This document shows, piece by piece, positions 12,750 through 59,999 of a stretch of 64,000 nt of DNA. The translations under genes were made by a program, and so were the position numbers. Location of the stretch: the NCBI GenBank assembly GCA_014871385.1, contig CM026426.1, positions 32,385,386 to 32,449,385 of the forward strand. Direction: 5' to 3'. Source of the stretch: Ceratodon purpureus (lineage: Eukaryota > Streptophyta > Bryopsida > Pseudoditrichales > Ditrichaceae). Under the pieces are notes generated by a model. That model was given only the letters and a program-made list of their open reading frames with translations, was not told the DNA's origin and did no database searches. Within the stretch, counting starts at the first letter, position 1; every line of letters begins with the position of its first letter.

Positions 12750-12753
12750 TGGT
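12750..12753. repeat. Target-site duplication TGGT, left copy
   Basis: TGGT directly precedes the left terminal repeat and recurs directly after the right one (27199-27202). A four-base duplication is short, so by itself it is weak; with the inverted repeats it is consistent with transposition. Confidence 0.6.
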
Positions 12754-12776
12754 GGGTGTAAGTATGCCAGACCCTA
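12754..12776 (+). repeat. Left terminal inverted repeat of the 14.4-kb element
   Basis: Starts GGGTGTAAGTATGC, then one mismatch, then AGACCCTA; 22 of 23 positions match the reverse complement of 27176-27198. AGTACT-type motifs follow closely at about 12800, 12818 and 12829. Confidence 0.85.
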
Positions 12777-12839
12777 TATACTTGTGGCAAAATGGCGGAG
12801 TACTAAAACTACACAGAAGTACTCAAAGGTACTCAGTAT

Positions 12840-14880
12840 TGGCTCAGGGTTTTAATTTTGGCCACGGAGTTGAGATCGACGGTGGAAATTGGATCCGTGA
12901 ATCCTCCAATCGGGAAAGGGGTACCTTAGGCTCAGTGGCAGCGAAGGAATGTGTCTATATTCGGAGTAGGACACGGTACTTTTGGAGAATCCCATGGTCT
13001 GATATGGTACATGGTCACTAGACAGGGTGGACCAGCATGGTATCACGTTCTTATGGTCAGGCCACCTAACCCCGCGACCGTGGCAGCCATTTATACCTTG
13101 ACGCGTGTTGAACCAGGGCCAAGAATGGAAGCATTGAATCCTATGTGATTTATTTTCCTAGTTGGCATCCAAAGCCTGAATGGAACCCACCGAACTTTTA
13201 TTTGAAATGATCTAAGTCTCATCCAACTTTGTCAATCTAAATTATTTATAAGGCAATATGCTATGGTTTCGACAAGATGCATAATATTAATGTAGATGTT
13301 GCCTGGATGAGAGTTCATGTCCTACGTTTTTTGGAATGTATGGAATATTTGTCAACCCAATAGAAGTATTGTTTATTCTATTCGACCCAAATTCCATTGA
13401 ATATGATATTAAAATGACTAAGGAAGGGTATATATATTATTATCTCATTTTAATTTATTTGAACACGCATGTAATTCAAACAATAGTATATTCTAGTTGG
13501 ATCTATAATGTAATTAAATCAATATCTAGCATAGTTCATCGATGTATGTATATTATAATGACAGTTTCCAAAGTGATATTTTCAAAATCACCATGTATTG
13601 TGAACCGTTGATTGTTGTAGAGGGAAAATAATCATTTATGAAGGTTTGCTATAAATAATGTGGGTCACAATATATATTGATTCCAATGATGTACACTTGT
13701 ATTTTGTTCCTCGTAAATTATGCATGTATATATAATATACATATAATTAAATGGTTCCAAGTTTTAATAATTTTTTTACAATTTCATTGAATTCATTTTA
13801 TTGTCCCCCTCTATCTTCTTATATTTTATTATTTCATTATTCTTACATACAATCTCCCCAAGTTTCTTTTCTCCATTACTCTCCCATCCTATCTCCTTCT
13901 TAAATTTGTTTCTTTTCTCTTCTCCTCTACCTTCCTATATTTTTAATATTTCATTATTCTTCCATTCAATATTCCCATAATTTTTTCCCAATACTCTCCC
14001 ATTCTATCTTTTTTTGTATTTTTAACTATTCATCTTCCCCTCTATCTTCTTATGTTTTTATTATTTTATTATTCTTCCATTCAATCTCCCCCCCCCCCTT
14101 CTCTCCTCTCTCTTTTTCAAACCTACCCCCCCCCCATTCCCCCCCCCCCCCTTTATTTTCCTCCCTTTTCTTCCGCCCTTTATTTTCCCTTTAAATCTCC
14201 CACCATTTGCTTTTTCAGTTTTTATTTTTTTTATATTTCTTTCACTCTATCTCCTTATATTTTTATTTTGTCATTATTTTTTTAATTAATCTCCTCCTTC
14301 CTTTTTACTTTAATTTTTTTGAATACCTTTATATTATTTTTCTATTTAAATACCCACGTAAATAATATCACAAGGTGTATTCTAAGTAGGTTAGAATTAA
14401 TAAAAAATTATAATACAATTAGTGTAAGCATGTATTTAGAATTATCATTATTCTATAAGTGATTTCTTGGTATTATTAGATTGTAGAAACATTTAATACC
14501 CATATAAATGAAATCATATAATGTAATCTAAGAGGCTCATAGTGAATCAAAAATAGTATGAAGTATAGTGGGAGGATGTATTTCGTGTTTTCCTTATTCT
14601 TTTTTTACATTTATTAATACTCTAATATTGTGTATGTTATTACAATTGAGACATGGAACTAAAATAGAGGTTTAGGGTACATGGGTTCAAAAGGAATTTA
14701 AAATTGACAAGCATTCTTATAGATAATTAAAACACCATTTACACAATTATAATAGTTCTTCTTGGGTACAAGATAGTATAATGGTTTAACTTGATGGAGA
14801 ATTTGACATCTTGGGCTGTATGGAATTACTAGTTAATGTCTCATTGAATCGGTGATCAGAGGATAAGGTTTAGGATCGCA
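12840..14880. other. AT- and pyrimidine-rich left arm of the 14.4-kb element, no gene
   Basis: No protein-like frame. Between about 13800 and 14160 an imperfect unit of roughly 115-125 bp repeats three times, recognisable by CTCTATCTTCTTAT, TTATTATTTCATTATTCTTC and CATTCAATCTCCC. It ends in long C runs near 14090-14150. The remainder is AT-rich. Confidence 0.5.
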
Positions 14881-14886
14881 GTCTTT

Positions 14887-15040
14887 AGTAACCGGTGACC
14901 GAAGGTTGCGCAGCGTGAGCCACTGGTGACCGCCGGTGGAAGGCCCCGTCACCGGTGGTAGCAAGTTTGGGAGAGTTTTTCTTCGAGGATGACCAGTGAT
15001 CATCGTTTCCTCACCATCATCAACAGGTGATCACCGGTGG
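14887..15040. promoter_or_regulatory. Cluster of ACCGGTG/CACCGGT palindromes upstream of the accessory/SET gene
   Basis: At least five variants of ACCGGTGAC and TGATCACCGGTGG occur in about 150 bp, in both orientations, roughly 330 bp before the ATG at 15366. Clustered palindromes in this position could bind the element's own protein or a host factor. No match to a known site is claimed. Confidence 0.3.
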
Positions 15041-15365
15041 TCGTCTTCTTCCTCATTCCTCGGGGGTGTAGGGTGTCACCCCCAGTTGACAGAGAGTCGT
15101 TGAGGCGGTGGGAGGTGATGGTGTTGGTGGTGAGGAGATTGTGCGTGACGGCCTGAGGACGAGGCGTATGAGTTTCCTTCTTTTCATTCTAGGATTTAGG
15201 GTGGGGCGAATGGGTTTTCGTAGCGATGAGGGGGGTTCTGAGGGAGAGGCGTATTTTCCAATACATGTTGGAGGAGATCGGGATTGACTGTGTCAAGGAG
15301 CGACATATCGGTGGCTTCAGAGAAGGTGGAGATCGAAGGCAGGTTGCGAGAAGTGATTAAGGAGG

Positions 15366-18300
15366 ATGGAGGGGTCTGCTGGACGGCGTTCGGGGAGCAC
15401 ACACAGCGGGAGAAAGTCCCGACAGAGTGCACAAGCGGGGCTGGATGAGGAGATCGACATCTCTGAGGGTGTAGGCGTGAATCGAAGGCGTTTCGCGCCG
15501 AAGAAGACTCCAAAGCCGATGATAGAGCGGATCAACCAGGTGGACTTGGAGATTTCGAGGTTACGGCCGCCACCGCGAGCACTGACACGAGAAGATTTCA
15601 TGCGGGAGTACCCAACTCTTGCGAGCGATGGCGAGAACCCACATCGATTTTGGAAGGGACGGGTGTCTCCTGCTTTGTTGAAGGAATTATTTGAAGACCC
15701 ATACGGCGATGGGGGACGCCAAGGTTATGGGTGGGCAGGTTGCAAGGAGGCGTGGGTGGTGAAGAGGATTCAGTACCTTCACCCAATTCTCTACCAACAT
15801 CCAAGCAGTGAGATTCCTCCTTACCTAAAGATTCATTTTGCCGAGGGTGTTGCAGTCGAGTTTGATGAAGGGAAAGGGAAAGTAGATTGGTGTGCCTTTG
15901 GAGCTGACACTAATAAGAGGCAGGTTAATCGATATGAACAAAGTGTCCAGAAGTTGTTGGCTTTGAGGAAGACGCTGGAGGGGGATAAGCCTCCAGAGGT
16001 TTGTGGTAGAGAGTGGGCAAAAATTAAGGTAGAGCCAGGGGTGCGTGGGGAAAGTCCAGGATGGAGTTCAGAGGTTAGGAGGGAAGATGTAGGAGACAGA
16101 ACTTGGGAAGAGGGGAGGACGAAGTCGAGGCTGGGTGAAAGCGGCGGTATTTTCGAGTCTGGCATGGGATCAGGGGTGGATGTTGAAGGTGGTACACAGT
16201 ATGCACGCAGAGGAGGATCATGGACTCAAGGTAAACTGAATCTTTCCATCTCTACGTTTGTATATATAGTTTCTGTCTTGCTTCTAAGTTGCTCAAATAA
16301 TTGTGTTCAAATGGATTTGTCAATTGATGTGAGTTGTTGTTGACCTGTCCATTTCTTTAACATATGTGAATTTGTTGCATTGGTTGCTCTTGACCTGATG
16401 CGCAGAATCGGTGAAGGAGAGGGGCAGGGAGGTACAGGAGCTCGTCACTGTGTTGACTGTGGAGATGGAGGCGGACAGAGTGCGGGAGAAGGAGGCTCTC
16501 CAAAAGAGAGATCGGTGTAAAATGAAGGTGGAGCAGTCTGAATGTGTCTTGGAGAGCTACGAACACCAGAAGGTGGAGAAGGGGTTGAAGATCGATGCCA
16601 TGGTCAGTGAGGGAGTTGACGTTGATCGGGAGAAAATTAAAATGGAGCTCATAATGGAGCAATTATGTGTTGAACAGTCTCGGCTATTGGGTTGAAGAGA
16701 AGATCTAGAATCGGCAGAGGCAGAGGTGGCCAACATGGCACATGGAATCGAGGCTTTTCATTTACAGTTCAAAGCGCTGAAGGCGGAGTTGTTCGAGTTG
16801 CAGAAGGGAAAGGTTTTAGGTTCATTTTGGCCGCGGCCCATGGCTTACTCAGAGGAGAAGGGTGCACAGGTTTCAGATTGAAGTGGACTTCTGGAGATTT
16901 CTACTTGTTCACTGAGTCAATTTCCGTTTTCTAACAGTGACATTATTGTATCATCTTGTAGGCACTTGTATCATCCCTATTGTTCATGGATTGTTTTTGT
17001 GCATGGAGGTACATGTACTCCTAAGGGGTGCCAAAATTTATCACATCCGGATTGGCATAAGAGTTTTGGGTGGGGAGAGCCTAGTGCCAAGCTGCTTCAG
17101 ATGGCCGAGATGCTTGGATGTGCCGAGGAGCAAAGGAAAACCTTGCAACTGAGAATGGAGGAAGCAAGAGCAACTTGTCCAAATGCGGGTAAGTTTTCAA
17201 GCATAGAATCTATATATTCTTGCTAATTCGTTATTACCTAGGAGTATGGTTTAGCCTCTTATGAGTGAATCAGAATATACGATAAGTATGCTAGGTCTTT
17301 GTTTGGTAGTTTAATGGTGTGCTAACTATACATTTTTGTAGTGTGATTAGTTTGTAAACAGTGTTTGGCACAACATTTAAAGTACGTGCCACTCTAGAGT
17401 ACTAAGAAGTACATTCATCAACGTGATTTATGTTTTCCACTGCTACTGTTACGTATTCACAGTGTCTAGAGTACTAATGCATGAGCTGAATGGAAACCGC
17501 AATTTCAATGCAATATACTTATAGTACACTTATAGTTCAGCATATACTGACTAGGTTAAAGGGTATGTATTTGAGTGTACATTGACTCCCTACTTGAGAA
17601 GAAGTTGTAGTATACAATGTGATATTAGAAGTCCTTTTGTACATTAAGTGTACTTAGAATTAACTGTGCTAAATGTATGGAAGTATATAAGAGGACTTTA
17701 GAATACTTGATATATCTGGTTTCTGTATTGGAAGTACATTGGTATGATACATTAGATTACTTGTTATATATGTTGACTAATGCTTATGTACTTTTCTTCA
17801 TGTACTCCACGTGCATCTTATACTCGGGTTACAAACACTCTGCTTTTGTACGCATTGTATACTATGAGGTAAGATTTATTTTTGCTTATGTACGTATGGT
17901 ATTGTTCATGGGTGCATGCAGTATGACTTCTTAGTATTATCAGTACTAATGTCTGCACCCCCTAGTTGTACACTGTCGAGTAATAGAAGTACGCTTTTTT
18001 TAAGATGTGGTTCAAAATTATAAGTAACAATGATATATTTTGTGGGATTTCAGGCTTGTCGTATCCAAAAATCGCTCACCCTACTTGAAGGATTTCACCA
18101 CCTAATTTCACTGAGGGTGAAGCGAGTCAAGCCACCAGCTCTCTCGTTGGTGGCGCGGGAATCTCTCCTGCTGCGTTGCTAAACCCTTTGCAACGCACTG
18201 CGAAGGAAGTGACCCGCAAAGGAGGGGTTCAGAAAGTTAAAAGCAAGGTAAAAAAACTACAAAAGAAGGATGAGGTTGTCTATGAATGTTTGGAGACTGG

Positions 18301-19296
18301 TGCAGTGAGACGTAAGGGTAATGAGCCTAAACTCGACAATGAAGATGAGTCGTCCGAAGGTGATGAGCGGTTAAAGCAGTTGAAGTTGCCATCATCTTCT
18401 GGAACGACTGACTCAAGTGGGGAAAAAGAAGACTCTGACGGTGAGAAGTCTGTGGATTCCAAGGAGCGTGAAGATTCAGAAGATGAAGATGGGGAAGAAG
18501 AGGATGCTGCTAGGATGCCTACTCTAAAGTCGTATGACCCACAGTTTATAAGCCCACAGGAGCCGCTGAGGGTGAAGATTGCTGGAGATGAACATATTGT
18601 GGCTCCGATCGAAGAGATTGTAGCTTCAACGATAAAGATGCATGAACCTCTGAAGACGAATGTTGTGAGTGAAGAGCTGTTGAAGAAGACAGCAGCAGTG
18701 GAAGTTTCGAGTGCTTGATGGGGCGCAATACAAGGAAGAATGATGTGAAGACAGCTGTTGGAGCAGGAGAGCAGTTTCTAGAAGCACTGGAGGATGAGAC
18801 CTTCAAAACACCGGAGAAGATAGCATTGAAGACCTCGGAGAAGTCACCTGCAAAGAAAAAGATGAGGGCCGAGAAGAAGAAGTCCAAGGAGGTGCCAAAT
18901 ACGGAGGAGGTAGGCCTGGAGGTTGATAGAGTTGGAGGAGAGATGGCGCCTACGCAGGAGGAAGGCGAGCTACAGGGTGAAGAAGACGCACAGGTGGGGA
19001 ATGATGAGAGGGAAACGGGGAAGAATGGCCATACAAGTGGATCGTAGAAGCGGAAAAAGAAGATGGAACAAGAGAAGGATGAAGAACAGTTTCCGACTTC
19101 GATGGAGAATCTATACAATGCGAAGCATAGAACTCTTACTGCGCTCACCGATTTTGCAGCGAGGCAGGGTATTGTAGAGGGTAGTGAGGACGCTAAGGAT
19201 GACAGTGAGAGTCCTCAAGCCCCGGTAAAGTCTCCGGCTGGACTACGTAGAGTCATGACACGGTCACAAGAGAAGCAAGCACTGGCGCCTGCACAG
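15366..19296 (+). pseudogene. Accessory part of the element-2 gene (globular, coiled coil, acidic), several breaks
   Basis: Exon 1 15366-16230 opens with ATG and encodes a basic leader and a globular region. It joins in phase to exon 2 at 16406 (CAA G|AA TCG) with a Glu/Lys coiled coil to about 16869. Exon 3 is 16962-17188 (a Cys/His patch around YHPYCSW and CTPKGC, then more coil). Its junction with exon 4 at 18054 is in phase; the exon 2-3 junction I could not settle. Exon 4 runs through a very acidic Ser/Asp/Glu stretch and Lys-rich patches to a CAG|GTAAAG donor at 19297. Breaks: TGA at 16693 and 18086, a frame change near 18716, TAG at 19045. The donor is in phase with the SET exon at 19590, so this may be the N-terminal part of one protein. 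The alternative is a separate gene ending at 19323 (KKRKKRR, then TAA). Confidence 0.5.
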
Positions 19297-19589
19297 GTAA
19301 AGAAGAGGAAGAAGCGCCGTTAAGAAGTAGATTTTATATGTGGCTACGGAATGTAGCCACTGTGATGTATCTCCAACCTTGCAACGAGACTGCTGAACAA
19401 GGAACCGGGGGTATTTGCTCCCATTTTTGTTATTGTTTATTTCTGTATTTTTGGTGCAGCTTTGAGTTCATTTTTGCATGTGGGTGTATGTATCTACAAC
19501 ATGTTTTCAGCTATGGTAGAAAATCAGAATTCTTCTCAATGTTTAATTCTTGGCCCTTGACTGTTTTGGGGCTTTTTTTGGGGGGCTAG

Positions 19590-20677
19590 GACCCGTACCA
19601 GGCTATGCCCTGGTTTGATCCTGGAGATTTGTCGAGGTGGATGGAGGCTATAGCTATTCGAGTCTGTAATCCCTATGCTTATATGTCGCCATTCCGGTAC
19701 ATGTCCAACAGCAGGGTTCATGAGAAGGCCGCTCTAAATTTGAGCCTTTTCTCTCCGAAGTTTGGAAAATGTTGTAATTGTGGGCCTCGGGATTGTTTAA
19801 AATCTTTGTAGCCTTGTGAATGTGGAAAGGATTCAGGTGGAGAGATAGCCTACAAGGAGGGTGGCATCCTCAAGGATCGGTACCTTCAGCACGGTGGCAA
19901 CAATTCCCTTGGTTGTAAGAGGAAAAAAAAACTCTATTCGCATGGTGGCTCAGTGATTTATGTGGAGAGGAGGCTTAGTGCCTTGTGCGGTAATCGTGGA
20001 TCACGCAGATTCATTAGAGAATGTAGTGTTGGGTATGGCTGCCACAATGAATGTGGTAATCGTGTTGTTCAACAGGGGATGAAGTATCCAGTAGAGATTT
20101 TCCATACGGGCCATACTGGATGGGGGGTGAGGGCGAGTAGACCCCTTCCAAAAGGTGTGTTTCTCTTCGACTTGGCTGGAGAGGTTTTCAAAAATGCTGA
20201 GATGATTCTTAGAAATCTTGTAGCCTCACCTGGACCATCTTTTGCAATGCAATTGGATGCTGGTTGGGCCACCGAAGCCAAACTTGATGACAACTCTGCG
20301 CTCTGCTTGGATTCCCAAATTTTTGGTAACGTGGGAAGATTTGTAAACCACAGGTTTGTAATCCAGCCGGCTGATATGCATTACTGTAATGGTTCGAAGT
20401 CGTTTATTTATGTCTAATGAAAATGTGTGTTTCTTTTAGGTGTGAAGATGACAACTTGATCAAAGTTCAAGTGCAGATTGACGAATGGGACAAGAGCATT
20501 TACCACATTGCATTCTTCACAAATCGAGACATTTTGATTCATGAAGAGTTAACTTGGGACTATGGCTGCGACTTTAGCTACGAAGACCCTGATTTGCCTT
20601 CCTTTACATGCAAGTGTGGGAGTAGCTACTATAGGGACTGGCGTAGTACCTTTGTCGTATCTCGTAGATCACAATAA
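19590..20677 (+). pseudogene. SUVR-type SET histone H3 methyltransferase domain (pre-SET, SET, post-SET)
   Basis: Exon 19590-20353 follows an acceptor (GGGGGGCTAG) and joins exon 20440-20677 in phase inside the catalytic motif (NH[AG|G]C), a GT..AG intron of 86 bp. Visible: Cys-rich pre-SET (KCCNCGPRDC, PCECGKDSGGEIAY), CGNRVVQQG, GWGVRA, NVGRFVNHRCEDDN with the Asn-His pair, AFFTNRD, ELTWDYG with the catalytic Tyr, and post-SET CKCGSSYY. Order and wording match the plant SUVR group, which methylates histone H3, usually Lys9, at silenced DNA. Defects: a TAG at 19809-19811 inside the pre-SET; Tyr for an expected zinc Cys in ECSVGYGC; Tyr for the third post-SET Cys. Each can be explained by a single transition. 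A working enzyme is doubtful unless the stop is an assembly error. Possibly fused to the gene part upstream. Confidence 0.75.
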
Positions 20678-21074
20678 AAAATCTTTTCTAAATACTAAGT
20701 GACATGAATCTTGCGTTTAATTAATTGTAAACACTAAGTGCTACATTGAAGTACTTACAACAATTGACTGCAAAGATCCTTTGAATTCCGCATTTTTGTC
20801 TAACAAAGGACTTAAGTTATGAATTACAATGAAGGATCGATCCAGTTAAAGAATAAATGCTCATAGTAAATTAGAAAGTTAATACGAATAGTATCCAAAC
20901 TGTTACGAAGAGTACTCGAAATACCACAAAGAGCCATTCAAAAACTACAAACAGTACTCGAAAGTAGTTCATATTATACATTCCAATTTACATTAAAATA
21001 TACAAAGTACTAAAAAACACTAAGTTCTTGACAGTAAGAGTACTTGTAGTATCTAGAGATACTCAAAGTTGTAG
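20678..21074. other. Spacer between two convergent genes, AGTACT-rich
   Basis: Lies between the stop of the SET gene and the end of the transposase gene, so it must hold both 3' ends. It is AT-rich and full of AGTACT/AAGTAC strings (about 20741, 20912, 20953, 21007, 21041). No gene. Confidence 0.6.
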
Positions 21075-24000
21075 TTAACTACTCCTCATGGAATGCCCAC
21101 CAATCGCGCAAAGCATCTTCACATACTCTCATGGTCTCTTGGACATCTTGTATACTGGAGAGCCCTTGGCCCTATGGGAAGCAAGTACCATGGGGAATTT
21201 GCACGCTCTGACTAGATGTGCATCGACATACGCCTCCACAGCTTCATTGCAAAATAAATACGTTTTATCCCCACGTCCGTGCTTCTTGAAGTATTTTGCC
21301 CTAATAACTTCATCCCCAGCGGCAAAGACGCCCCCCCATGGACATTCTAGGGGCTCTTGTATCTCAAACTTAGATCTGGTGCACTGCAATATGTAGAAAT
21401 CCACGCCGTCTTCATTCTCCTCTTCTGCAGGTATCATGAAATTATCGCCAACCTCAACCAGGTCTCCTAAGACCAATGACACGCCATCATGCACCCAATT
21501 ACCTTCACCGTCCATTTCCTCCATCTGTGCCGCCACTGAAGAAGCGCTCTCCGGAACCAACCTAGCAACATTCCAGCCCTGCACATGAGATGAGTTCAAG
21601 CAATTAGCCCAATTGCCATCAACGCATGATATACAGAAACAAGATAAAGCACGTGTCCTGAGAAGAGTAGGGTCAGATTCGGAGAAGCCCATGATGGAAT
21701 AGAGTGATTTAGATCCTGGCAGAGTGTTGCAACGGATGCTCCTGTCACTATGGACGACCTCCTTCTCTCCAATGTCCCAAAATACACGAGAGAGGGGTGG
21801 AGCCGTGCTGATCTTTGTCCGCCTGTAGGAACTCTGAACCCGCTCATTATACTTCTCTTGTAGAAAGTCGACAACTTGTGCAGCATTCGCCAATGGCCTC
21901 AGAGGATTTTGGATTTGCTCGGCACTCAACGCCCTCTTCACGACCGCCCCGGCCCCTCCCACTCTCCCTTCCCATGAGCAGTCTCAAAATAGTTCCACCG
22001 CATCTTGCATCCCTTGGTGAGCATGGGATATCTAGCCACAAAGTACATAGCTGTTGCACATTTGAACTGAGCGCTACAGCCATCACTATACACCCAGTGT
22101 TCCTCCGGAATAAATCCTGAGTCCTCTAACCAGTTCCAATGCAAAAGCAAGCAATGTTGGACATAAGTAGAGTCGTGATCTTTGTCATCCGATATGTAAA
22201 AGTGCATCTGCTTCATTACGGTATCCCCTTCTTTCCACATTGTAATATGGACAAGGATGGTTGCGGACGTGCTGAAATAGTACAAACTTTGCACTTCATT
22301 CTGAATAGCAAAGCTATAATTTTCTGCAAAATCGATATGAGACACAAGTACTCCCTCCGGGACGTTCTTCATCATTAAATGACATTGCTCATCCTGCCAC
22401 CTCGCTCGGAAGTTGTGGGTGATGAACGTGGACACTGTTCTCTCCATGTACAACAAAAATTCTTTCACAGGAGTATCCCTGAAAGCCTCTCTGAGCCGCT
22501 TCTTGGGCTTTCCAGTCCTCTTATCAACGCCAACCTCATAGTATTCAAAACACTTCCACCTCACAAGAAAGGAGTCAGTACTAGACAACTCGAAAGGGCA
22601 AAGAGGAAATAAATGGAAGCCACAATCTAGACACTCTCCCATGAGACAATCAAGCTTGTGCCACACATCCAATTCTCCTTTCGGGCACACACAGGATTCC
22701 CACATCATTGTAATGCGCTTATAAATTGCCTCGTGTGCATGGCAAGCCCCTTCAGCCTCACACTTACATACTTGACATCCACAGTTGCACGTGACCCTTG
22801 AATGCAACCCCCTTAGTTGATCTCTGAGATGGCTCAATCCAACCTTCATGAAGTCCATCTCTACGTGGTATATACAGCAGCATGTGTTTCGTTCCTTCAA
22901 TTTCCGAACCCACCATGGTTTCAACCTCTCGAAGACTCTCTGGTGCACGTTGCACTCTAGGTGAGCCTCCATAAAACGCAAAAAGAATGTTGTCTGTCAA
23001 CCATGGAAACATTTTCCAAAAGTATTATACTTGTTGTATTGAAAGTAATAAACCTAGGTACAATATATTCTGAAATCAAGTACAAGTTATACAAAGGATT
23101 ATATTAAGTACACTATCCTTGGGTTTGTGTTTACATCCAGTACAAGAAATACAAGGGTACTTCGAACACACTAACCAAATGTACTGAGTATAGACGACTC
23201 CTACACTCGATGAGTACGACATATACACAAAGTATATTGGCGTTCGTACAATTAAGCTTAGCTGTACATCGCCGGTACAGAGGACTTATCACAAATATCA
23301 CCTACATACATCGTCAACTACATAAGTAGATGTAAAGAGTCCCAACTCAGTACTAAACAACAAGAAGCAGAGTATTTAATATACACAACTTCTTAACCAA
23401 GTTATACCACTTTGTATATTAGCAGTACTTGTTGCCCACATTAATACATTCGACCCTACGTTAGTAAGAAATCAAGTACATAGTGCTCTATATATTGGTA
23501 TGATACTGACGACCTTGTACACTATGGTTGAAAACGCAGAGAAAGAACACAATGAATGTACAACATGTATGTTTAGTGGAAGGTCTTACCTGTGTCTTAC
23601 AGAGGTAGTGCGTAGGATGAGGCTCCACCCACAGATTTCTGCCTACCTTGTGTTTAACAACGTCCTTTTTGTTTGGCAAAACCTTGGTCTGTCCATTCCA
23701 CCATATCTCAATCTATGATTTGACGTAATCTGACAAGCCTCCTCTCTTCTGTCAATTGAGGCGAAGCCGAGGCACTATCTCTTCAGGACTCAACCCATAC
23801 ACTCTTCTATTCATGGCTATATTGATGCTAGACGTAGAAGTATCCAATACACGTGACAGTGCTAACACGCCATCGACTCCCAAGCTTACTGCCGCATCTA
23901 ATAAAACACTCTTTCTTGCTAATCGCTCGTTCGAGTTTGCCACCTTCACCAACTGCAACTCGTTCTTGAAATTCTCTATTAAACTGTATGTGACCTTCGC

Positions 24001-24889
24001 CTCTTGAGGCCTAGGATAATATAGCGGTAATAGAGGCCAAAAAGCATTTTGCCTCATGACCCTCTCGACAGCATCTCTTCTACTAGAAGGACCGGGACAA
24101 CTCCTCAACTCTCCAACGATATACTTCACTATTCGCAAAGAGATCCGATTCAACTCCCTCACTGACATCTGATCAGGTGTGTCATCATGTAAAGGGTCTG
24201 AAGCAAGACCTCGTGTTTCCTCCTCTCTCTCTCTCTCACGTGCTCTTTGTAGAGCCTTACGTGCTCTTGCCGTCTCTCTAGATACGGCTCTCTGCTCTTC
24301 CTCCAACCTGTCTTTAGCAGCCCTGGCTGCAGGACCAGGTCGACTAACACCCCCTCGCACTCGTTGCCTCTTTGCAGTATTCCCCACAACTGACACCCTG
24401 AAATATGAACACATAAAAATGATGAGTACATAGAGGGTGCAAATTACAGCAATGAGCGTAGTACAATTTAAATGTGTCCACATGAAAATGTAAAAGAACT
24501 TACCAAACTGTAGTCGCCTGTCACCGCCTAAATGCAATGGACTCGCAGCTACTAGTGGGGGAACCTATGGAAAATTGTACATCAGATAGAGAAGGCAGGT
24601 ACTCGTAGCTACTATAGGAATCTACACTAACTGCGTTTGCAAATAGTGCACGCCTCGGGGACTCTTCAGACACGGTGTTGCATTTGGCTAGATAATAGTC
24701 AGGGTTCCCTTGTTTAGAGACAGGGGTTTCAGAAACGTAACAAGAGTCACTACTCTCACTATCCACTATGTAGAGAAGGGAGTCTATCTCCGTACTAGCG
24801 GAGAGCAAACCCGGAGGGAAGCCTTTTGGAGGGAAGTACAAAGTAATCAGTTTCTAGACAAAGAGGGACTGCTGCCTGGACTTAGACAT
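21075..24889 (-). pseudogene. DDE/D-type transposase gene, copy 2 (three exons, several breaks)
   Basis: Same family and exon plan as copy 1: exon A 24889-24525, exon B 24397-23647, exon C from 22993. Both copies have phase 2 after exon A and phase 0 after exon B. Exon B is Arg/Glu-rich; its end (PNKKDV) matches copy 1 (PNRKDV). Exon C has the Cys-rich region (TCNCGCQVCKC, CVCPKG, CLDCGF), then DFAENYSF, YSDGCSAQFK and AHGKGEWEG, a second Cys patch (LSCFCISC) and the BAH-like end (VGDNFMIP, FYILQC, KYFKKHG). Breaks: TAG at 24856-24854 (codon 12), TGA at 23754-23752, TAG at 23715-23713, and a lost base near 21960 exactly where copy 1 encodes its third Asp. A further in-frame TGA at 21131 may be the natural stop; otherwise the frame ends at 21075. 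Not functional as read. Confidence 0.7.
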
Positions 24890-25752
24890 CGTTTAGCGAA
24901 CAGTTCTGTAAATTGCATATTCTAGCAAGGAAACAAAACAAGAGCCATGCACAAACTGTAGTTTAATTCCAAGCGACATTGAGTAGACACAGAATACAGC
25001 AGAGCACAACGACTAGGCAGAGAAGAAGAGAGAATCCAGGGCGGCGCCGACGTGGAGGCCAAAGGGTTGCTAGTGGTGGCGGCATCTTAGACTCGGCGCC
25101 CCTAGAAAATAGAATCTTGATTATCCGTTACCAGAGAATGTACTCACTATATGTGGAAACTTAGTGTACTCATTGCATGTACACACTGCATGTACTCACG
25201 GCGTGTACACAGTGCACATAATAAAATTAACTGCATACCGTGTTGTTTGATAAGAGCCTCGAGTGTAAATATTTGGATTGGTTGTCATTTCCTTTGAATT
25301 GACCAGTGGACGTTGATATTGCGGATAAATATTGATCCTGTGGAGAATATTTATTAGTTTTTAAGCTCTGCGCTTTATAAATGAATCTTGTGGATTTCAC
25401 GCCAGCTAACGTAAATAAACATGAAGGCTGCCTTAAAATTACTGTTACAGAATGTGAATTTCTAAACGTTCAATAAGATGTAGAGGAATATATCTTTGTA
25501 ACAATGTGCATTTGCAGATCAATAAGCAGTGTAGTTGCAGTGACTTAGAGAAATGCGAGATCCTTCAACTTGATCAGAGTATACACCTGTTAAAAATGAA
25601 GAAAGACCCTTGACAGCTTGTGCGTTGTTGCCACAGGTACCACAAAAATATCCTAAAACTAATCAGAACCTCATTTACAAGGGGAGATTTTAGACACATG
25701 ATACATCTTGCATGTAATCATTGCGGCCGACAACAAGAAATCAACATAACCC
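24890..25752. other. Spacer behind transposase copy 2, no gene
   Basis: Contains the likely promoter side of transposase copy 2, then GTACTCAC/GTACACA strings near 25140-25210 and AT-rich sequence to 25750. No protein-like frame seen. Confidence 0.4.
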
Positions 25753-26052
25753 TTAACTCATATAAAAATGGAACAACATTGCAAAAACGCGGTTCCAGAT
25801 GTCTACATCTTGCGCAAGCTCCCGTTCATGATCCAAGCCGATGCGGATGAGGAGCAGAGTGGTTAAGACGTTGGCGTTCACCATAGCAACATGATTCTCG
25901 AAGGGCTTCTCGAATCCAAACACGTCTGCAAGGAATTGAAAATGCTCCTCCAACTCCCGCTTGTCCCACCATAGTTCCACGTGGTCGTCTTCAACAGATG
26001 TTGTTCTCAGCACGGCCTTCTGTATAGCACGAGGGCCGAACAGTTCGTCCAT
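25753..26052 (-). CDS. Small intact ORF inside the 14.4-kb element, function unknown
   Basis: The ATG at 26052-26050 starts a 99-residue frame without stops. It is rich in Leu, Phe, Glu and Asp, with regular heptad-like hydrophobics (LEEHFQFLADVFGF) and a hydrophobic patch (NVLTTLLLIRIGL). Upstream, CAG acceptors at about 26115 and 26220 suggest it may be the last exon of a spliced gene. I do not recognise it. It is one of the few unbroken frames in this element, on the same strand as the transposase. Confidence 0.4.
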   Translation of the reverse strand: MDELFGPRAIQKAVLRTTSVEDDHVELWWDKRELEEHFQFLADVFGFEKPFENHVAMVNANVLTTLLLIRIGLDHERELAQDVDIWNRVFAMLFHFYMS

Positions 26053-27175
26053 CTCCTCGAGTCTCGAGTCCTCTCAAAGTTCTTCAACTCCACTGTTACA
26101 TCGACTTCCCACCTGAACAAGTTGAACAACAATATAAGTATCTAGAAATCAAAACGTGGTGATTAAATATACAACTGCTAATGCCAAATGTGTGGTAGGG
26201 TTTTCCAAACCTGAAAAAGACGTCCTCGAGCCTCCTCTTCTTCTAATAGTCTGATACAAATTCCACCCCTTGAGCTCTCTCATTCTCTCTAAACAAAACC
26301 CCTACAATTGTATGAACCTAGAACCTAGTAGAAGATGAAGGTGCTAAGACAAGGGTATGTTCAGTGATTGAGGGAAGGCACTGGTGCGCACCCACTGCTG
26401 TGCATGCGCAAGGAGTGCAGAAGAAAGGCAAAGCAGAAGAAAGACGCACACCTGACTAGGTCTCCACGCTGGAATAGCTGTACTGAAAGTTGCAGGGAGA
26501 ACACAAGGCAGCCGTTGACGGCGCTTGGCGTCCTGAAATGTAGGATCTAGGGGCAAGAAATTGATGGTGGAGATGAGCGATGCTCACCACGGACGGTCAA
26601 GATCTACCGGAGTTCTGTACATTATATACTCTGAGTACCTTGTGTACAGATAGAACGCAGTCGCATGTATGAAATGAAATGACGGGGAAACTGGTTTTTC
26701 ATGTATTCTTTGATTAGCCATCTTAGAACAACCATTGGGTACCCAAAATCCGCGTTCGGATCCACAAAAATCTTAATTTTACATACACTTTCCCCCCGCC
26801 AACTGTATAGTACTAATTATGCAAAGCCACCCCAAATGTGTAATCTCGCTTCAAATGTTCTAACGGTTTTGAAAAGAACATTCCATTGCCTATCTCTTCC
26901 GAGAGAATGGACAAAATCCATGCAATTTCAAATAAATATTTCTGTACTTTTCCTTTTTTTTTGTACTTGGAACATATGAAGCGAACTCGTCATAAGTACA
27001 AAATTAACATGAGCAATTAAGTTTTACAACCCTTTCAACAATGGTAATATGATCTTCGACATCTTACCTATTCCTTTCTGAGATCAAAACCTGCAAAAAC
27101 ATTGAGGCTTCATGCTTTTTCAAAGTACAAAGCTAAGGTACTTTGCCATATATTGTACTGTGACTCAAAAAGTAC
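26053..27175. other. Right arm of the 14.4-kb element, no gene
   Basis: Mixed-composition sequence with AGTAC-type motifs increasing towards the end (26616-26640, 27126-27138, 27171). No gene supported. Confidence 0.4.
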
Positions 27176-27198
27176 TAGGGTCTAGCATACTTACACCC
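27176..27198 (-). repeat. Right terminal inverted repeat of the 14.4-kb element
   Basis: Reads TAGGGTCT, the mismatch base, then GCATACTTACACCC, the reverse complement of the left end except for one position. An AGTACT motif abuts it at 27171, and TGGT follows at 27199. Confidence 0.85.
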
Positions 27199-27202
27199 TG
27201 GT
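27199..27202. repeat. Target-site duplication TGGT, right copy
   Basis: Matches the four bases before the left inverted repeat. Beyond it the G/T-rich sequence seen before 12750 resumes. Confidence 0.6.
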
Positions 27203-32162: not shown

Positions 32163-35100
32163 ATGCCAAGGGCGCGGCCAAACGGACGCCTACCTCTGCA
32201 GCATCTTGGCCGACAAAGTGCACGGGATACAAAATTACTTCGGCGAGAAACTGCTAGGGCACGGAATGCGGGGATACAACAAATGAGGTGTCCCAGTTGC
32301 ATTTGCAACAAAAGAATTCCGAACACTGTACTCTTTGAAAACAATAGCAAAACATGTCCGCAATTCCGGCTACCACCCCTGGCAACGTGGGAGTACGGAG
32401 GTAAGACCTTCGATAGATGCATTTCATTCTTATTGTGTTATGTTAATGCAATCCATAGCTCATTGACATATCTGGTAAAGGTCATTTTGGGTACCGCTAG
32501 CGTGAGTGCGTTGCTAATTGCTATACATATACGTATAAGGAGTTACTTCATCTCAGAATGTTGGCTTAGAGAAAGTAATTGACTGATGGGATTTTCTGGT
32601 CATAGTACTGGGCTACAATGCGGACCATTCCGACGTCAAGTGGGACGACCACATCTGAAGAGAGTACGGAGAGATTGCCGTGCGAGGAGAGGAGGTGTCC
32701 CAAGACCCCGCCAAGGCAAATGTCGACGTCATTGAATTGCTTCAGAATACATTCGGAACATGGGATGAAATCCAGAACCTAGCAGCCGACAAAGCAGATG
32801 CAAGAGAGGCAGAGCGACCTGAACAATCGGAGGAGAATAATTACGGAGCAGGCAATGGAGAACAGCCGTTTCACGAGCCTCCAGAGGATAATATGACGAG
32901 CACGGACGGTGATGATGGAAACGGGGATGACTGGGAAGGGGACGACATGAACTAGGGAGATCTTGATGTGGTGGACGCCAAAACAGTTGCAGAGCTGCAA
33001 AGGATACAGGAGGTTGCGAGGGTTCCTCTATATCAGGGTTCTCCTATCTCTAGTCTGGATGCGGTGATACTCATGCTCAACCACTATCGGGGAAATAATG
33101 CAACCAATGTGTTGATGGACCATGCATTTGCATTAGCTCATCTCGTTCTGTTGCCACAACCAAACACTTTGCCGGATTTGGAATACGTCGCATCCCAGAT
33201 GCTTAGGAAGTTGGGACTAGAGTACAGTTCCATCGAAGCATGCCTCAATAATTGTATTCTGTACCGACACGTATACGAGAATAACCAGGTCTGCCCTAGC
33301 TGAGGAAGAGGCGACATGGGAATTCCTGGGTTCCAAGGAAGGTTTTGCGACACTTCCCGCTAGTTCTTAGACTGAAACGTATGTTTAGAAGCTCAATATA
33401 TCCTACCTCAATGACGTGGATAGCTCGTCACAAAGTAAGTGATGGGAATGTCCGGCACGTATCGGAGTCCGAACACATGGAGGACATTAAATCAAAGCAC
33501 CCAGAGTTCTGCATTGATCCACGACGTCTCTTTCTGACGCTCGCAACTGATGGTATAAACTCGTTCTACGAGAAGAGGAGCGTCTACTCTACTTGGCCTA
33601 TTACGCTAATGAATTATAACATCCCTCCCTAGATGACTACTAAAAGGTATTGCATCATGTTATCTTTGCTCATTCCAGGACCGAAAGCCCCCTCCAGGGA
33701 TGACTTCGATACGCTTATTGAGCCGCTGGTGGAAGAGTTGGAGGCTCTGTGGTACGATGGCATCATGATGGAGGATGTTGCACGCTTCAGAGATGAACGT
33801 TTCTTTTTGATGAAATGATGCTTATTTTTTGCATCCCTGACTTTCCGGCCTATGGAATGGTGTCCGGTTGTGTGACGAAGTGGTACCTTGGGTGCTTCGT
33901 ATGTGGTCCCAACACAATCTCTCGGAGGTCCCAGTTCTTGAAAAAAAATATTTACGAAGACCAAGCGTAGGCACCTTCCAAACGACCATCCTATGAGGTC
34001 TAGGGCACGTGACTTTAGAGGTCGCGTGGAATTCAGGATTGCTCCAAGTAGAGTGACTGGTGCTGAAGTTGCAGCTTCAACTGATGTCCGTCAGCGGTGG
34101 CTTGACGAGGGTAACCAACCTAGGGCTCCCGAGGACCCAGTTTGGGTTACTCGTGTGAAGCGGAGGTCGATCCTCTTTAGGCTGCCTTACTGGGCGGTGA
34201 GTACCATATTCCTCACATTACATTTAATCCATATCGTTTACTTCACCTTGTAGTTTGTAGGGTTACGAAGGCACAAGACATTATTTTTAATTCCGTTGAT
34301 CTATGACTGCTGTTATAATGATGGACTGCAGTGCCTGGGTAATGTCGGTGACAATTTTCTGTCCCACCTCACATTGTCTTTGTATTGTTTCCCCCTCGTC
34401 TGTTCAGATTTGTTGCTTTTATGTTGATATGCATTAGCACAGAACGTGGCTTTACCTATATGGCATTGAAATTCACCCAGTAGCAGTAAGTGTCGTAGTG
34501 TACTCAGTATCCTCCAATTCCAGAGACATGTTTACGATACAGTTATTGGGATACCTGTCGTATGTACACATTTTGATCACTCGTTAACCGTATGCACAAG
34601 CATCGCCTCTGCTATACCTCAAATAAAAAATGTATGTTATCTACTGTCACCCTTGTAATTCTACAGCATTAGAGAATGTGATCACGCTGAGGCAAATTTA
34701 TCATATTCAGCCCTTTGGTTTGAGTAATTTTATGTCCCATGTCTTTCTATATGCACCGCAAAGGTCCACATGTTACCCTCTTTTCTGTGACAACATTATC
34801 GTTTATATGTTCGGCATAGCCCTTGCAATTATGGTTCTGGTTAGTACACCTTGTTAATCTTATGTTTTAGTTTTTGTTTGAAGAGACATGGCCATCAACG
34901 ACTCTGTAAAAGACCCCCTTCAATCATGCTTCGTAGTATTTTTTAATGCAATCATGCTTTTCTATTTTCTAAAGGTTTTTGTTTCTTAGTAGGGACTCCG
35001 CATCCGTCATACCATTGACGTGATGCACATCGAAAAAAATGTTACTGCGAGTGTTCTGGGATATCTTCTTGGTAACCAGGACACGGCTGCGGTTAGAAAG

Positions 35101-37057
35101 GACATGGAGGCGGTGGATATTAGAAGACCATGGCATCTTCAACCTCGACCAAGTGGTGGAACTTTCTTCAAGCCGCATGCCCCCTACTCCCTGAACTCTG
35201 CTGAATTGGCACAGTTCGTGAACTCTGTTCGAGCCATCAAAGTCCCTACCGGCTACAGCTCAAACACGAACAAGCACGTCGCTGACCACCATCTCCAGGG
35301 CTTAAAAAGCCATGACCATCATGTTCTTCTACAGGGTATTATCCCCGCTTGCATTTGCGGATTATTCCATCCAGGCGTTCGCAATGCCATCATCAGATTA
35401 GGCAATTGTTTTAAAAAAATATGTGCTAAAGCCTTGGATCCACGTAACATGGAGTCGCTGCACAAATATGTGGCCGAGACAATGTGCATACTTGACGTAT
35501 GGTGTACTCCGTCATTTTTTGACATTATGCCACATCTTGTATTCCACCAGGTAGACAAATTGGATTGGCTCCGACCAGTCCACTCACGATGGTGTTACAG
35601 AGCAGAGTGTTACCTCTACGTACTGAAGAAGTATGTACGGAACAGGGCAAAGCCTGAAGCTTCTATTGCCACTGGATATTTATACGCTCACGCCTTAGGC
35701 TTTGTAAGCGAGCACCTATCCACCTACCTAGGGCACCAAAAAATGTGGGATCCAGACGAAGCAGAGAACAACAACATTGAGGTCTTGGAGGGAGCCTTTG
35801 ATATGCGGGTGATGTCTGAGAATGAAGTTCGTGCTATTCACGAGTTCGTGATTTGTAACCTAAAAGCGAGAGAGACATTGAGAGAGTACGTTCCCGTTAC
35901 ACCTCCTTCTTGCAATCTCATAATGATAAGTGACTGTATTGAATTTGCAACTTCAAAGCTTACATGTGCATCTAATTTATCTCTAATCAGCTATCAGACT
36001 AATAGTTCAGCAACGCCATTTTATCCAGGCAGTACGAAAGGCTTGTTCGAAGGCATGTAACCGAAGAGTTACATCAAAACCGAAGAGTTGAACCATTCTC
36101 CACTTTGCTAGACAGAAAAGTGGATTCCATGAAAGAGGCTAGAGAGGAGGTCACCCCCAAGCTGCGACACCTACCACAGTTACCACTATCCACTGTTACG
36201 AAGCACAAGAGAATGTGGGCCTATGTGAACCACTACCGTACAGAGGATCCGGTAGTGGGGAACAAATACCTCACCTACGACTCCGGTGTTGCCTGCGTTG
36301 CCTCCACCGTGTGCCTCGCTTCATCCGCCAACACGAGACCTGTCCAAGCAGAATTGAAGTACGTTGGGGTTCTACGTATGATCTTACAAGTGAACTATGT
36401 CTACAAAAAGATAAATGTGATGGAATGCTCGTGGATTAAGCCAAATGTCTCTGGGAATCCAACTCTGAAAAAAGATTCCAATGGTTTTAGGGTGATCAAG
36501 AAGGGGGCATTCCAAGGACCAAGATTAGAGCCATACATTCTTTCCATGCACGTATCCTAGGTATGGCGGTCCACCTACAAGTCTTAATCATCATCATACT
36601 CTTCACATTAAGATTTTTGTAAAATACTTGCATTCTTTTTGGGATAATGCAGACAAAATATTAAGGACTAGGTTTCTCACCGCCTTCTATGAAGGTATTT
36701 TTTGCAAGTGACCCAGCGAATCCAGGCTGGCAGGTTGTGATACAGAAAGAGCCCAGGTCACGGCGTGCTGAAGTAGATTCCGATGAAGGATTTATTGGCG
36801 CAGGCGGATTACCTACACCAGTTACAAACGAGAACAAAACAGTGGTGGAGGATAGGACTAACGAAAGGGATGTCCATATTGGAGAAAACATTCCGTTAGA
36901 AGAGGTTGCAACGATAGTCAAAGATATGGAACTAGTAGACGCTACACAAGCATTCCAAGATGTAGAACACGAAGACGACGATGACTACGAAGACATTGCT
37001 CTAGAGCAAGAAGAACCCAAAGAGATCACTGCAGAAAACGTTGACGATGCTCTGTAG
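32163..37057 (+). pseudogene. CACTA TNP2-like transposase, decayed multi-exon gene
   Basis: Exon 1 32163-32400 starts with ATG and contains RCPSCICNKR. It joins exon 2 at 32606 in phase. The TNP2 order follows: YSSIEACLNNCILYRHVYEN, CPS, HFPLVLRLKRMF, STWPITLMNYNIPP, MLSLLIPGPKAPSRDD, PDFPAYGMVSGCVTKW. After a 797-bp intron (34198-34994) come VMHIEKNV and the DUF4218-like part (GLKSHDHHVLLQGIIPA, PSFFDIMPHLVFH). A DUF4216-like part (KYVGVLRMIL, VMECSWIKPN) and FFASDPANPGWQVV with an acidic tail to 37057 complete it. Breaks: TGA near 32656, TAG 32953, TGA 33301 with a shift, TAG about 33630 where Trp is usual, a shift near 33818, and others after 36057. It once catalysed cut-and-paste transposition; dead as read. 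Confidence 0.85.
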
Positions 37058-47396: not shown

Positions 47397-50300
47397 ATGA
47401 GTTACAGTCCAGGTTTGTCAGAGTCGAGTTGGAACGTGGATCCAGGTATTGGAAACTAGTTTCAATTCAATTCAGTTTTTGGATGGAATTAGAATGGACA
47501 ATGGATCACAAGACAAATAATCAGGTTAACCATCGGTTTGTGAAGTTGCTGCAGGGCCATCGCAACCGTTGAACGGATGGGACGACCCGGTGGATGGATG
47601 GGAGCTCCAGCCTTCCTACAACAGTGGCTACGGCGAGTACAACAACAACGGCAAGGCGCCCTTCGACACGGCCTCCAACGGCTCCAGCTCGTTCACAAAG
47701 GTAAAATCGCGCAAGGGGGGTATGAACCGGCAGGAGTATTCGACACCGCCCCACCCCGGTGGACGAGGAGGACGAGGAGGACGAGGAGCAGGTCGAGGAG
47801 GGGGAACGGCTAACCGAGGAGGGCGAGGAGGCCGAGGCGGGACTTTCATCGGCGGGCGAGGAGGGGCGAAGTCGCAACTGCAGGGCGCTTGGGGCCAGAG
47901 CAACAACAATTTTAGGCAGTACGAGGATTACGGCGGTGGTGCGCGGGGATGGGAGGCGAATGGTGGGGGATGCCAAGCGCCGTCGTGGAGTCCTGAGAAC
48001 GGATGGCAACAAGTGGGTGGGAACAACGGAGGTTTGTCCGAGAGCTCATCTCGAAGTGCACCGAGCAAGGGATCTAACAACGCTTGGCATCAGGGCTCTA
48101 GGGCATCGTCGACGGGCAGCAATCTTGGGCAGCAAGCTGGGGACACGGGGGGTGGCAACGTTGAGGTGTATGACTACCCAGCGAGCCCTTTCTCGGACAG
48201 CCAGTGCTCGGATCTGGATCATGTGGAGGATGATAGTGATGATGCGTTCTTCAGCGACGATTCGTATATACAGGAGAGTCATGAGGATCAGAAAAAAATT
48301 AAGTGGTTCCGCGACTTCTTCCAGGATCTTGATAGCATGAACAATGACCAGCTGAATGAGCACGACCGGCAGTGGCACTGCCCGGCCTGCAAGGGCGGTC
48401 CGGGGGCCATTGACTGGTTCCGAGGACTAGCTCCTCTCGCCACCCACGCGCGCACCATGAGGTCGCGGAGAGTGAAGCTCCACCGAAAGTTTGCGGAGGT
48501 TTTGGAGGAGGAGTTGCGTACTCGGCGCTCGGGAGCGCCTTGCGTGGAGAGCGTTCAAGGCGTGTTCGGAAAGTGGAAGGGAGTAAACGACGAGAGGGAT
48601 TCCCGACAGCAGCTCGTCATCTGGCCTCCCATTTTGGTCATTCAGAATACGCAGCTCGATCAAGACGACGAAGGCAAAGTATGTGCATCTCAGAACATGA
48701 TTTTATTCCTTTCTTCACCCGTCCATAGTAGAAATTGTCTCAAATATATGTGTACTGCTGAATTACCATGATTATCTTGTTTAAGACATTTGAAGTAAGC
48801 AGCTGGACAGAGATTTTGGATGCTTTTTGTGTCAGTTTTTGCTGTGAATGAGAGTCTAGGGCTTTGATGTTGATAGAAGTGGTCGACATGTTCTCTTCTT
48901 GCAGTGGATTGGGATGGGTAACAAGGAGCTGCTGGACATGTTTAAGGATTACAACCCATTGAAGCCTCGTCATGCTTACGGTCCGCTGGGTCACCGAGGA
49001 ATGAGCCTGCTCATATTTTCGGATTCGCCAGCTGGTTATCACGATGCAGTTCGTTTGAGCAATCATTTCATCAACTTGCGGAGAGGACGAGACGACTGGC
49101 ACCGCCCGAGTAAGCTCATATTTCGTCCTGGCGGTAACCGAATTCTCTACGGCTACTTGGCTGTGAAAGAAGACCTGGATATTTTCAACCGACACAGCAA
49201 AGGTACGGGATTCATCGGCCTCCAATTGATCATGCATTGATACTTCCATTGAAATTCCTTGAATGGACTGCTTAGGTTTCGAACGGAAGTGTCTTGAATT
49301 TATGAAGTACAGTTTGCAATTCTGAAACTCAAACCTTGTCAGACTTCTAACCGAAATTAGTCAGACCTTACATATTTGGATGTATTTATTTTTAATGAAA
49401 AATACTAGTTCTAGACCTGATCTGGAATATGAACTCGTAATCTACATGATTTTGGGCTAGTTAAAAGAAGGGTGTTTCTTCACAAGGTTGAACTATTGCT
49501 AAAGTTGCCATTACTACTATTTTCACTTGTTTTTTCAAATTTGTCTTGGCTGCGACTGCTGGCTGACGTTAATGTGGCGATGAGCAGGGAAGACGCTGGT
49601 GAAGTACGAAGTGCGGAAGCTGCAGGAGGTAGTAGTGGAGCCAATGCAGCGGATGGAGCAAGAGAATCAGCAGATGCAGTCTCTACAGAACGAGCACAAC
49701 ACTCTCAAGAAGACTGTCTCCGAGACCTCCAGAATTCTAGAGCTTCGTGGGGAGGAGCTTCAAATCCTGCGAGATCGGGCTGAGAAGCAGCACGCTGAAA
49801 ACAAGCGGCAGGTAAATTATCTGCGAGTGTTTACTGGTATGGCAACATTTTGATCAAGTGAATAATGAGAATGTAACACACTTTTTCTGTTGTCTTGTTT
49901 TCTTTCTTCAGCTAGCTGATATGGAGGAGTTTTATCAACAAGAAAGTGCTCAGTGGGCGGATGATCTTGCGACTAAGAACAGTGAAATGCAGAAGTTCAG
50001 AGACGACTTTGACAAGATATATTCCAGTCGGTGCCAAGAGCTGGAAGCCCAGCGTTCTAGTCTTCCGAATAACCAGGAACAGCAAACTTTGTAAGATTTG
50101 GCAACTTACACGTTTACAAGCCTTGACCTTTTTTTTTTACCTTTGAAAATGGTCTTTTAGCCATGTCACATGATTCGCGAATCTTGTCTTAGGATAAAAT
50201 TTTGGCCACTGGGTGCAATGGTTGACAAATATGAGCAATTACAATCGAGATTATTTTTGATACCTCAGAAGGTTTGGGTTTATGGTTTGACAAGCTTTTT

Positions 50301-59770: not shown

Positions 59771-59999
59771 TATTTTTTCTACAATTTTGTCAAGTGCTAT
59801 ACAAGCTATTTCCCATTGTTCAGGGGAAAGATGGTCATGGTTTTCTAATAATTAAGTAAGTTCATTTATTCTAATAGATTTTCCTTCAAAGAATTCTATA
59901 TTAAATTTTTCTAAGTTTTTTGCTGGTATTTGATTTAAAATTCTAATTTGTGGAGTTGTAATAGGGGGTGTAATTCTTGCAAGAAGTGTATTCTGGAGG

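Follow-up and report, generated by a model that had tools for sequence, protein, structure and literature searches.

The window analysed here is a 64,000-nucleotide stretch of the genome of the moss Ceratodon purpureus (C6:32385386-32449385, in a genome of 362.5 Mb in 151 contigs, with contig C6 at 110.5 Mb). It contains a 14.4-kb element which we read, with a probability of roughly 0.7, as a cut-and-paste DNA transposon that makes 4-bp target-site duplications (TSDs) and owns a gene for a SUVR4-type SET histone methyltransferase. The element's structure, its past mobility, the linkage of SET with the transposase, and their conservation and selection are shown by the genome sequence.

Structure and mobility

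The following features define the element.

12750..12753, no strand: left TSD, TGGT; the joined flanks with a single TGGT match an empty site
12754..12776, plus strand: left terminal inverted repeat (TIR), 23 nt, an inverted match to the right end
19539..20353, plus strand: SET exon 1, encoding pre-SET and the larger part of SET; the window copy has in-frame TAG codons at 19587 and 19809
20440..20677, plus strand: SET exon 2, encoding the rest of SET and post-SET; the window copy has lost one Cys
21080..22996, minus strand: transposase core with DFAENY, SDG and HGKG..DGAGA motifs; frame broken in the window
27176..27198, minus strand: right TIR, 23 nt, an inverted match to the left end
27199..27202, no strand: right TSD, TGGT, flush with the right TIR

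The two TIRs match at 22 of 23 nt. A preliminary description of this DNA had claimed 23-bp inverted ends with one mismatch, flush TGGT duplications, and a transposase facing a complete pre-SET/SET/post-SET module. The ends and duplications are as it gave them, and so is the convergent arrangement of transposase-like open reading frames (ORFs; minus strand) and SET exons (plus strand). The complete module is not present in the window copy, where a TAG falls within pre-SET and a post-SET Cys is lost.

To represent the site before insertion, we joined the 74 bases left of the element (TGGT included) to the 73 bases right of it. This query had three matches only: C2:26613068-26613214 over its full length (147/147 bp, 97% identity), and each half alone in the window. 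The C2 site is a similar copy of the flank, on another contig, that lacks the element. The left 301 bp of the element have 39 matches across the genome, and we read ten other copies, four of them with both ends within the read. The TSDs of these four are AACA, TATT and CCTT (all exact) and CAAA/CAAG (one mismatch). Because other copies have the same ends with different 4-bp duplications, and because an empty site exists, the structure is far beyond chance. The element thus combines what marks a cut-and-paste TIR transposon: TIRs, a TSD, its own transposase, multiple copies and an empty site.

The SET gene is present in all seven of the other close copies that were readable at that position, and in four it lies inside both ends. 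It also occurs, with a broken frame, in the more diverged copy C6_35.0. Two of the ten copies gave no answer: one read stops short of SET and the other covers only the left 0.75 kb. In an older subfamily, SET occurs in 7 of 15 slices, some partial or interrupted, with that of L036 on contig C12 complete and open; slice L033 has the first 51 SET residues only. No SET was found in 7 of the 15 slices. A by-eye comparison placed a same-strand close-family SET match 14-25 kb from the left end in L029, L033, L035, L041 and L042, a pattern that may reflect nested insertions. The preliminary description had suggested looking for full-length copies at other sites and for an empty site. As far as they were run, both tests came out in its favour: the SET exons travel with the element, between the same ends at other sites and in the older subfamily too, and a site without the element exists.

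The SET gene and its product

The SET intron (20354-20439) is bounded by GT and AG, follows the NHR codons and has the same position in the other families read. We are unsure whether the gene starts at an ATG at 19605, an ATG at 19539 or in an upstream exon. The ATG at 19539 is absent from all seven older-subfamily copies aligned there and from C6_35.0, and several copies have an interrupted leader, so a start at 19539 is disfavoured. We also considered a single long fusion gene spanning 15.3-20.7 kb. A splice donor-like site near 19298 would suit it, but a short W.PYQ leader ahead of pre-SET in several relatives speaks for a separate SET gene.

In the window copy, the TAG at 19809-19811 interrupts pre-SET, and the last post-SET Cys is changed to Tyr, as it is in one sibling. 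A Trp codon of the leader reads TAG (19587-19589) in the window, C6_28.1 and C6_85.7, the last of which also has a one-base deletion in the leader. From the ATG at 19605, both exons are open in six of the eight close copies aligned (window included), with stops in the window and C6_28.1. Some open frames are damaged: C6_90.9m is without post-SET Cys residues, a pre-SET Cys is missing from C6_110.3m, and NHR reads NHK in C6_84.3m.

Intact copies have the pre-SET, SET and post-SET parts and the catalytic motifs of a SUVR4-type protein, a set that is incomplete in the window copy. Pfam matches to an intact copy are above cut-off for both SET (2.8e-17) and pre-SET (1.5e-11). The nearest named relatives are plant SUVR4 proteins, with ~41-43% identity for the best, and structurally solved relatives include EHMT2, Clr4, SUV39H2 and SUVH6. 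A search with an alignment of four element families matched 155 proteins. Among the 120 listed, the named ones are SUVR4, SET-domain or uncharacterised proteins from flowering plants and the alga Closterium, and none is named as a transposon protein. A midpoint-rooted tree of 44 SET proteins puts both element sequences together with unnamed metagenome proteins, in a group of 22 rows that is separate from flowering-plant SUVR4. The W.PYQ leader is common to several of these metagenome relatives.

The WIYLD domain (PF10440) was not found with the elements, in a search which an intron-split domain could escape. That search gave one match (from 2 candidates) genome-wide, at C1:10504721-10504801 on the minus strand (10.5 Mb), away from the listed element matches. 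This locus is a candidate host SUVR gene.

Linkage of SET and transposase

A genome search with SET as the query protein gave 1070 first-look candidates; the best 122 were scored, yielding 179 matches, partly listed. We used 119 listed rows, after setting aside pieces of second exons and the second halves of copies that were split. By identity, 30 of the 119 are at 85% or above, 24 at 53-59% and 65 at 42-50%, and catalytic motifs are retained in the families read. Arabidopsis SUVR4 as the query found mostly the same loci (89 of 1015 candidates scored).

The equivalent transposase search gave 1556 candidates, of which the best 69 were scored. These 69 loci have 74-100% identity, nearly all span the 639-aa query, and 38 are stop-free by eye. 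A convergent SET match lies within 25 kb of 43 of them: 42 are 513-1375 bp from the first SET exon and one is at 17.4 kb. When the SET places were moved randomly by 0.1-3 Mb (500 times), pairs within 1.5 kb averaged 0.04, with a maximum of 1. The length of the gap between SET and transposase is family-specific, while the gene order is constant. Of the 26 unpaired transposase loci we sampled five. Each has SET sequence, which covers both exons in three loci and only part of the slice in the other two; L046 has Trp in place of the Cys of NHRC. In a relative on contig C9 (L049), SET and transposase are both open. Given the copies and this linkage, SET is a regular gene of this element group in the genome. 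In paired loci it diverges faster than the transposase: 53-59% identity for SET goes with 78-82% for transposase, and 45-50% with 74-77%.

Selection on SET and transposase

Strictly fixed changes between young and old copies of SET number 11 silent to 7 replacement, while private changes number 32 silent to 98 replacement or stop (Fisher p=0.0026). The transposase, with 400 codons compared, has silent:replacement counts of 12:4 fixed and 42:136 private (p=5.7e-5), the latter being 42:136 or 42:138 because of different coverage thresholds. Leaving out single copies in turn gave p values of 0.0002-0.015 for SET. An earlier, looser SET count with two old copies only gave 19:16 for fixed changes, and 12:29 (seven young copies) and 4:19 (window) for private ones. 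Fixed changes are silent-biased while private changes look neutral, so selection kept SET during the spread of the element. It appears from these counts that copies decay freely after insertion, and that the lineages which spread further kept a working SET protein. The cautious suggestion in the preliminary description, that the element used its own chromatin enzyme, gains support from this selection.

Two other comparisons concern conservation. Among pairs of SET sequences from A, B, C and D, 8 of 10 give a dN/dS (nonsynonymous to synonymous rate) ratio of 0.20-0.24; in the other two dS is saturated, and between families it is near saturation. In bins up to ~23.2 kb, SET and transposase are the best-conserved parts of the element (92.9-96.0%, versus 74.8-91.5% elsewhere).

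Points that weigh against this reading

Some of our results count against an element-owned, selected SET gene. The window copy is dead by its sequence, and several open siblings have lost a Cys or have a changed motif residue. Older-subfamily slices L030, L039 and L043 have no SET, and no close-family match nearby among the matches listed. SET-less members may also exist among the 21 of 26 unpaired transposase loci outside our sample. Fixed SET differences are few (n=18), and when L038 and L040 are left out together, the SET test weakens to p=0.018. The related families were compared by their SET and transposase genes. Lastly, loss of WIYLD could alter the substrate or partner of the enzyme.

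Other features of the element and window

The element's remaining features are as follows.

15357..19320, plus strand: accessory gene region (ORF1); its ORFs encode a basic C-terminus, a weak RING-like finger and a stretch that by eye looks charged and helical
20678..21079, no strand: gap between SET and transposase, with 10 AGTAC/GTACT sites in 402 bp
23752..24853, minus strand: ORFs upstream of the transposase, which may be its 5' exons or a separate gene

The transposase of the window copy falls into overlapping frames, while C6_28.1 and C6_18.5m have an unbroken 639-aa frame. It has no Pfam family match. Its 88 relatives are mostly unnamed, the two named by organism being Cryptomeria and Klebsormidium. 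A search of viral contigs with the transposase alignment gave 89 pattern matches, none of them a relative. Sola2 has 4-bp target-site duplications (PMC3627910). The moss copies share this trait (TGGT in the window; AACA, TATT and CCTT exact and one mismatched pair elsewhere), so Sola is a candidate superfamily, though we do not claim membership.

ORF1 evolves fast, with young-old identity of 77.5-91.5% in 250-bp bins. Its RING-like Cys/His pattern is in the 16882-17226 region of the window and in siblings, and the best Pfam matches (in a sibling copy) are below cut-off.

The motif AGTAC/GTACT is concentrated in terminal, intronic and intergenic stretches of several families (the window element and L045-L049). 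Inside the element, two sibling copies have 71 sites (14.4 kb) and 73 sites (14.5 kb), whereas ~5.5 kb of their flanks has 8 and 15. The SET-transposase gap of the window copy has 24.9 sites per kb. In five other loci this gap, as far as it was read, has 4.9-10.8 per kb, with 3 sites behind the lowest value. Elsewhere the density is 3.75 per kb in the window transposase and 2.06 per kb in those parts of the window that lie beyond the element, and it is zero in SET exon 1 and in the family B transposase.

Three ORFs lie outside the element in the window. One of 413 aa (47530-48768, plus strand) has an XS zinc finger just above the Pfam cut-off, a domain found in plant RNA-directed DNA methylation proteins. 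Another (34993-36057, plus strand) has DUF4218, which is frequent in CACTA-type elements. The third, of 693 aa (57773-59851, minus strand), has a reverse transcriptase domain and lies inside a strong GC skew at 54-62 kb.

What the SET protein may do

Histone methylation usually acts on transposons, whereas here the elements themselves bear an enzyme of that kind, under selection and in several families within one genome. The reason for a parasite to own an enzyme of the silencing type can thus be tested directly in a plant group. There is also a practical consequence: transposon copies may inflate the number of SET genes counted in a moss genome.

The activity of the enzyme, its histone target, its targeting and its effect are what we infer. 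In Arabidopsis, SUVR4 converts H3K9me1 to H3K9me3 (mono- to trimethylated lysine 9 of histone H3) on transposon chromatin, helped by ubiquitin bound to its WIYLD domain, and in plants the dimethylated form, H3K9me2, is the one that sustains CHG DNA methylation. The element's SET enzyme would be made together with the transposase and would methylate histone H3, probably at K9, on the chromatin of the element. Another element protein, one that reads the AGTAC-rich noncoding stretches, would draw it there. With a SUVR4-like preference, the enzyme could take this chromatin out of the silencing loop, and without WIYLD it would escape control by ubiquitin. The RING-like finger of ORF1 would be interesting given that control, yet it is below cut-off and we do not treat it as evidence.

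The likeliest effect, to which we give slightly less than an even chance, is anti-silencing, i.e., disturbance of the host's loop between H3K9me2 and DNA methylation. A more specific version is tentative: that this moss transposon clade keeps its own stable H3K9-type methyltransferase gene for sequence-directed anti-silencing, in which an AGTAC reader brings SET to the element and shifts H3K9 methylation away from the form which the host loop needs.

An unlikely but serious alternative is self-restraint, where the enzyme would put repressive H3K9 methylation on the element's own copies, giving a mildly repressed state, and so limit copy number or damage to the host. In its favour, the SET domain belongs by homology to the H3K9 methyltransferase class (EHMT2, Clr4, SUV39H2 and SUVH6, as well as SUVR4). 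However, on general grounds selection rarely favours self-silencing among the copies of one genome, and SET has been retained in elements that have grown numerous (the 1070 first-look candidates, 122 scored).

Contig C6, 30.5% of the genome, holds 84 of 119 SET loci, 35 of 69 transposase loci and 32 of 39 left-end matches, counts which rest on best-scoring matches only. We presume C6 to be a sex chromosome; its 110.5 Mb presumably fits the V chromosome. In C. purpureus, the U and V sex chromosomes exceed 100 Mb each, ~30% of a 360-Mb genome (PMC8000587). The C6 excess could be a sign that the enzyme or its mark guides insertion to certain chromatin, but we think this improbable: non-recombining U and V chromosomes generally gather repeats (PMC11062472), so accumulation after insertion explains the bias equally well, and the counts come with the limit just given. 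The excess is probably accumulation on the sex chromosome.

It is very improbable that SET is a passenger, captured once and carried without use. The broken window copy and the neutral look of private changes would suit a passenger, but the changes fixed between subfamilies are silent-biased, families at 42-50% SET identity exist and those read keep the catalytic motifs (except that in L046 the Cys after NHR is Trp), and the spacing of SET and transposase is family-specific with a constant order. A compound accident, with a host SUVR gene caught between transposon ends that are unrelated to each other, is barely conceivable: we found no evidence supporting it, and a host SUVR locus with accidental ends is ruled out by copies with the same content and different duplications, by the empty site, and by the sole WIYLD match being on another contig.

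Comparison with known systems

Plant SUVR4 proteins share with the element protein the order of pre-SET, SET and post-SET, the motifs NHRCEDAN and ELTWDY (in family A), and 37-43% identity in most matches. The element protein differs in that no WIYLD was found with it and in its W.PYQ leader, which families A and B share with several metagenome relatives. SETMAR also joins a SET domain to a DNA transposon, but it is a single domesticated fusion gene of its primate hosts, not a gene of a mobile element.

The preliminary description knew of no plant TIR element with a SET gene. We likewise found no plant transposon with one in the literature searched (most subscription papers and the Ceratodon genome paper were outside its coverage), so the claim holds for plants within that search. 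It does not extend beyond them: SET-bearing transposons are already reported from oomycetes. These are the Phytophthora HarbingerS and MuDR elements (Repbase Reports 2014, as cited in PMC12730594), which are likewise DNA transposons with an acquired SET histone methyltransferase gene. As described there, they differ in host and, by name, in superfamily. The moss element has 4-bp duplications, a transposase without a Pfam match, and a SET protein which among named proteins is closest to plant SUVR4.

Fungal transposons bearing TET/JBP are another case of a captured chromatin-modifying enzyme, and one proposed to counter silencing (PMC12730594). However, that enzyme acts on methylated DNA and is not a histone methyltransferase, and many superfamilies are involved.

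A parallel for the mechanism we propose is VANC of the Arabidopsis VANDAL elements, which reads a short motif in their introns, intergenic and terminal noncoding parts and causes loss of DNA methylation (PMC5735166). In both cases, a plant element has its own silencing-related protein and a short motif in similar noncoding places. They differ in that VANC is not described as a methyltransferase in the excerpt of PMC5735166, and in that the AGTAC reader of the moss element is only postulated. If sequence-directed anti-silencing is true of the moss element, it would be a histone-based counterpart of VANC.

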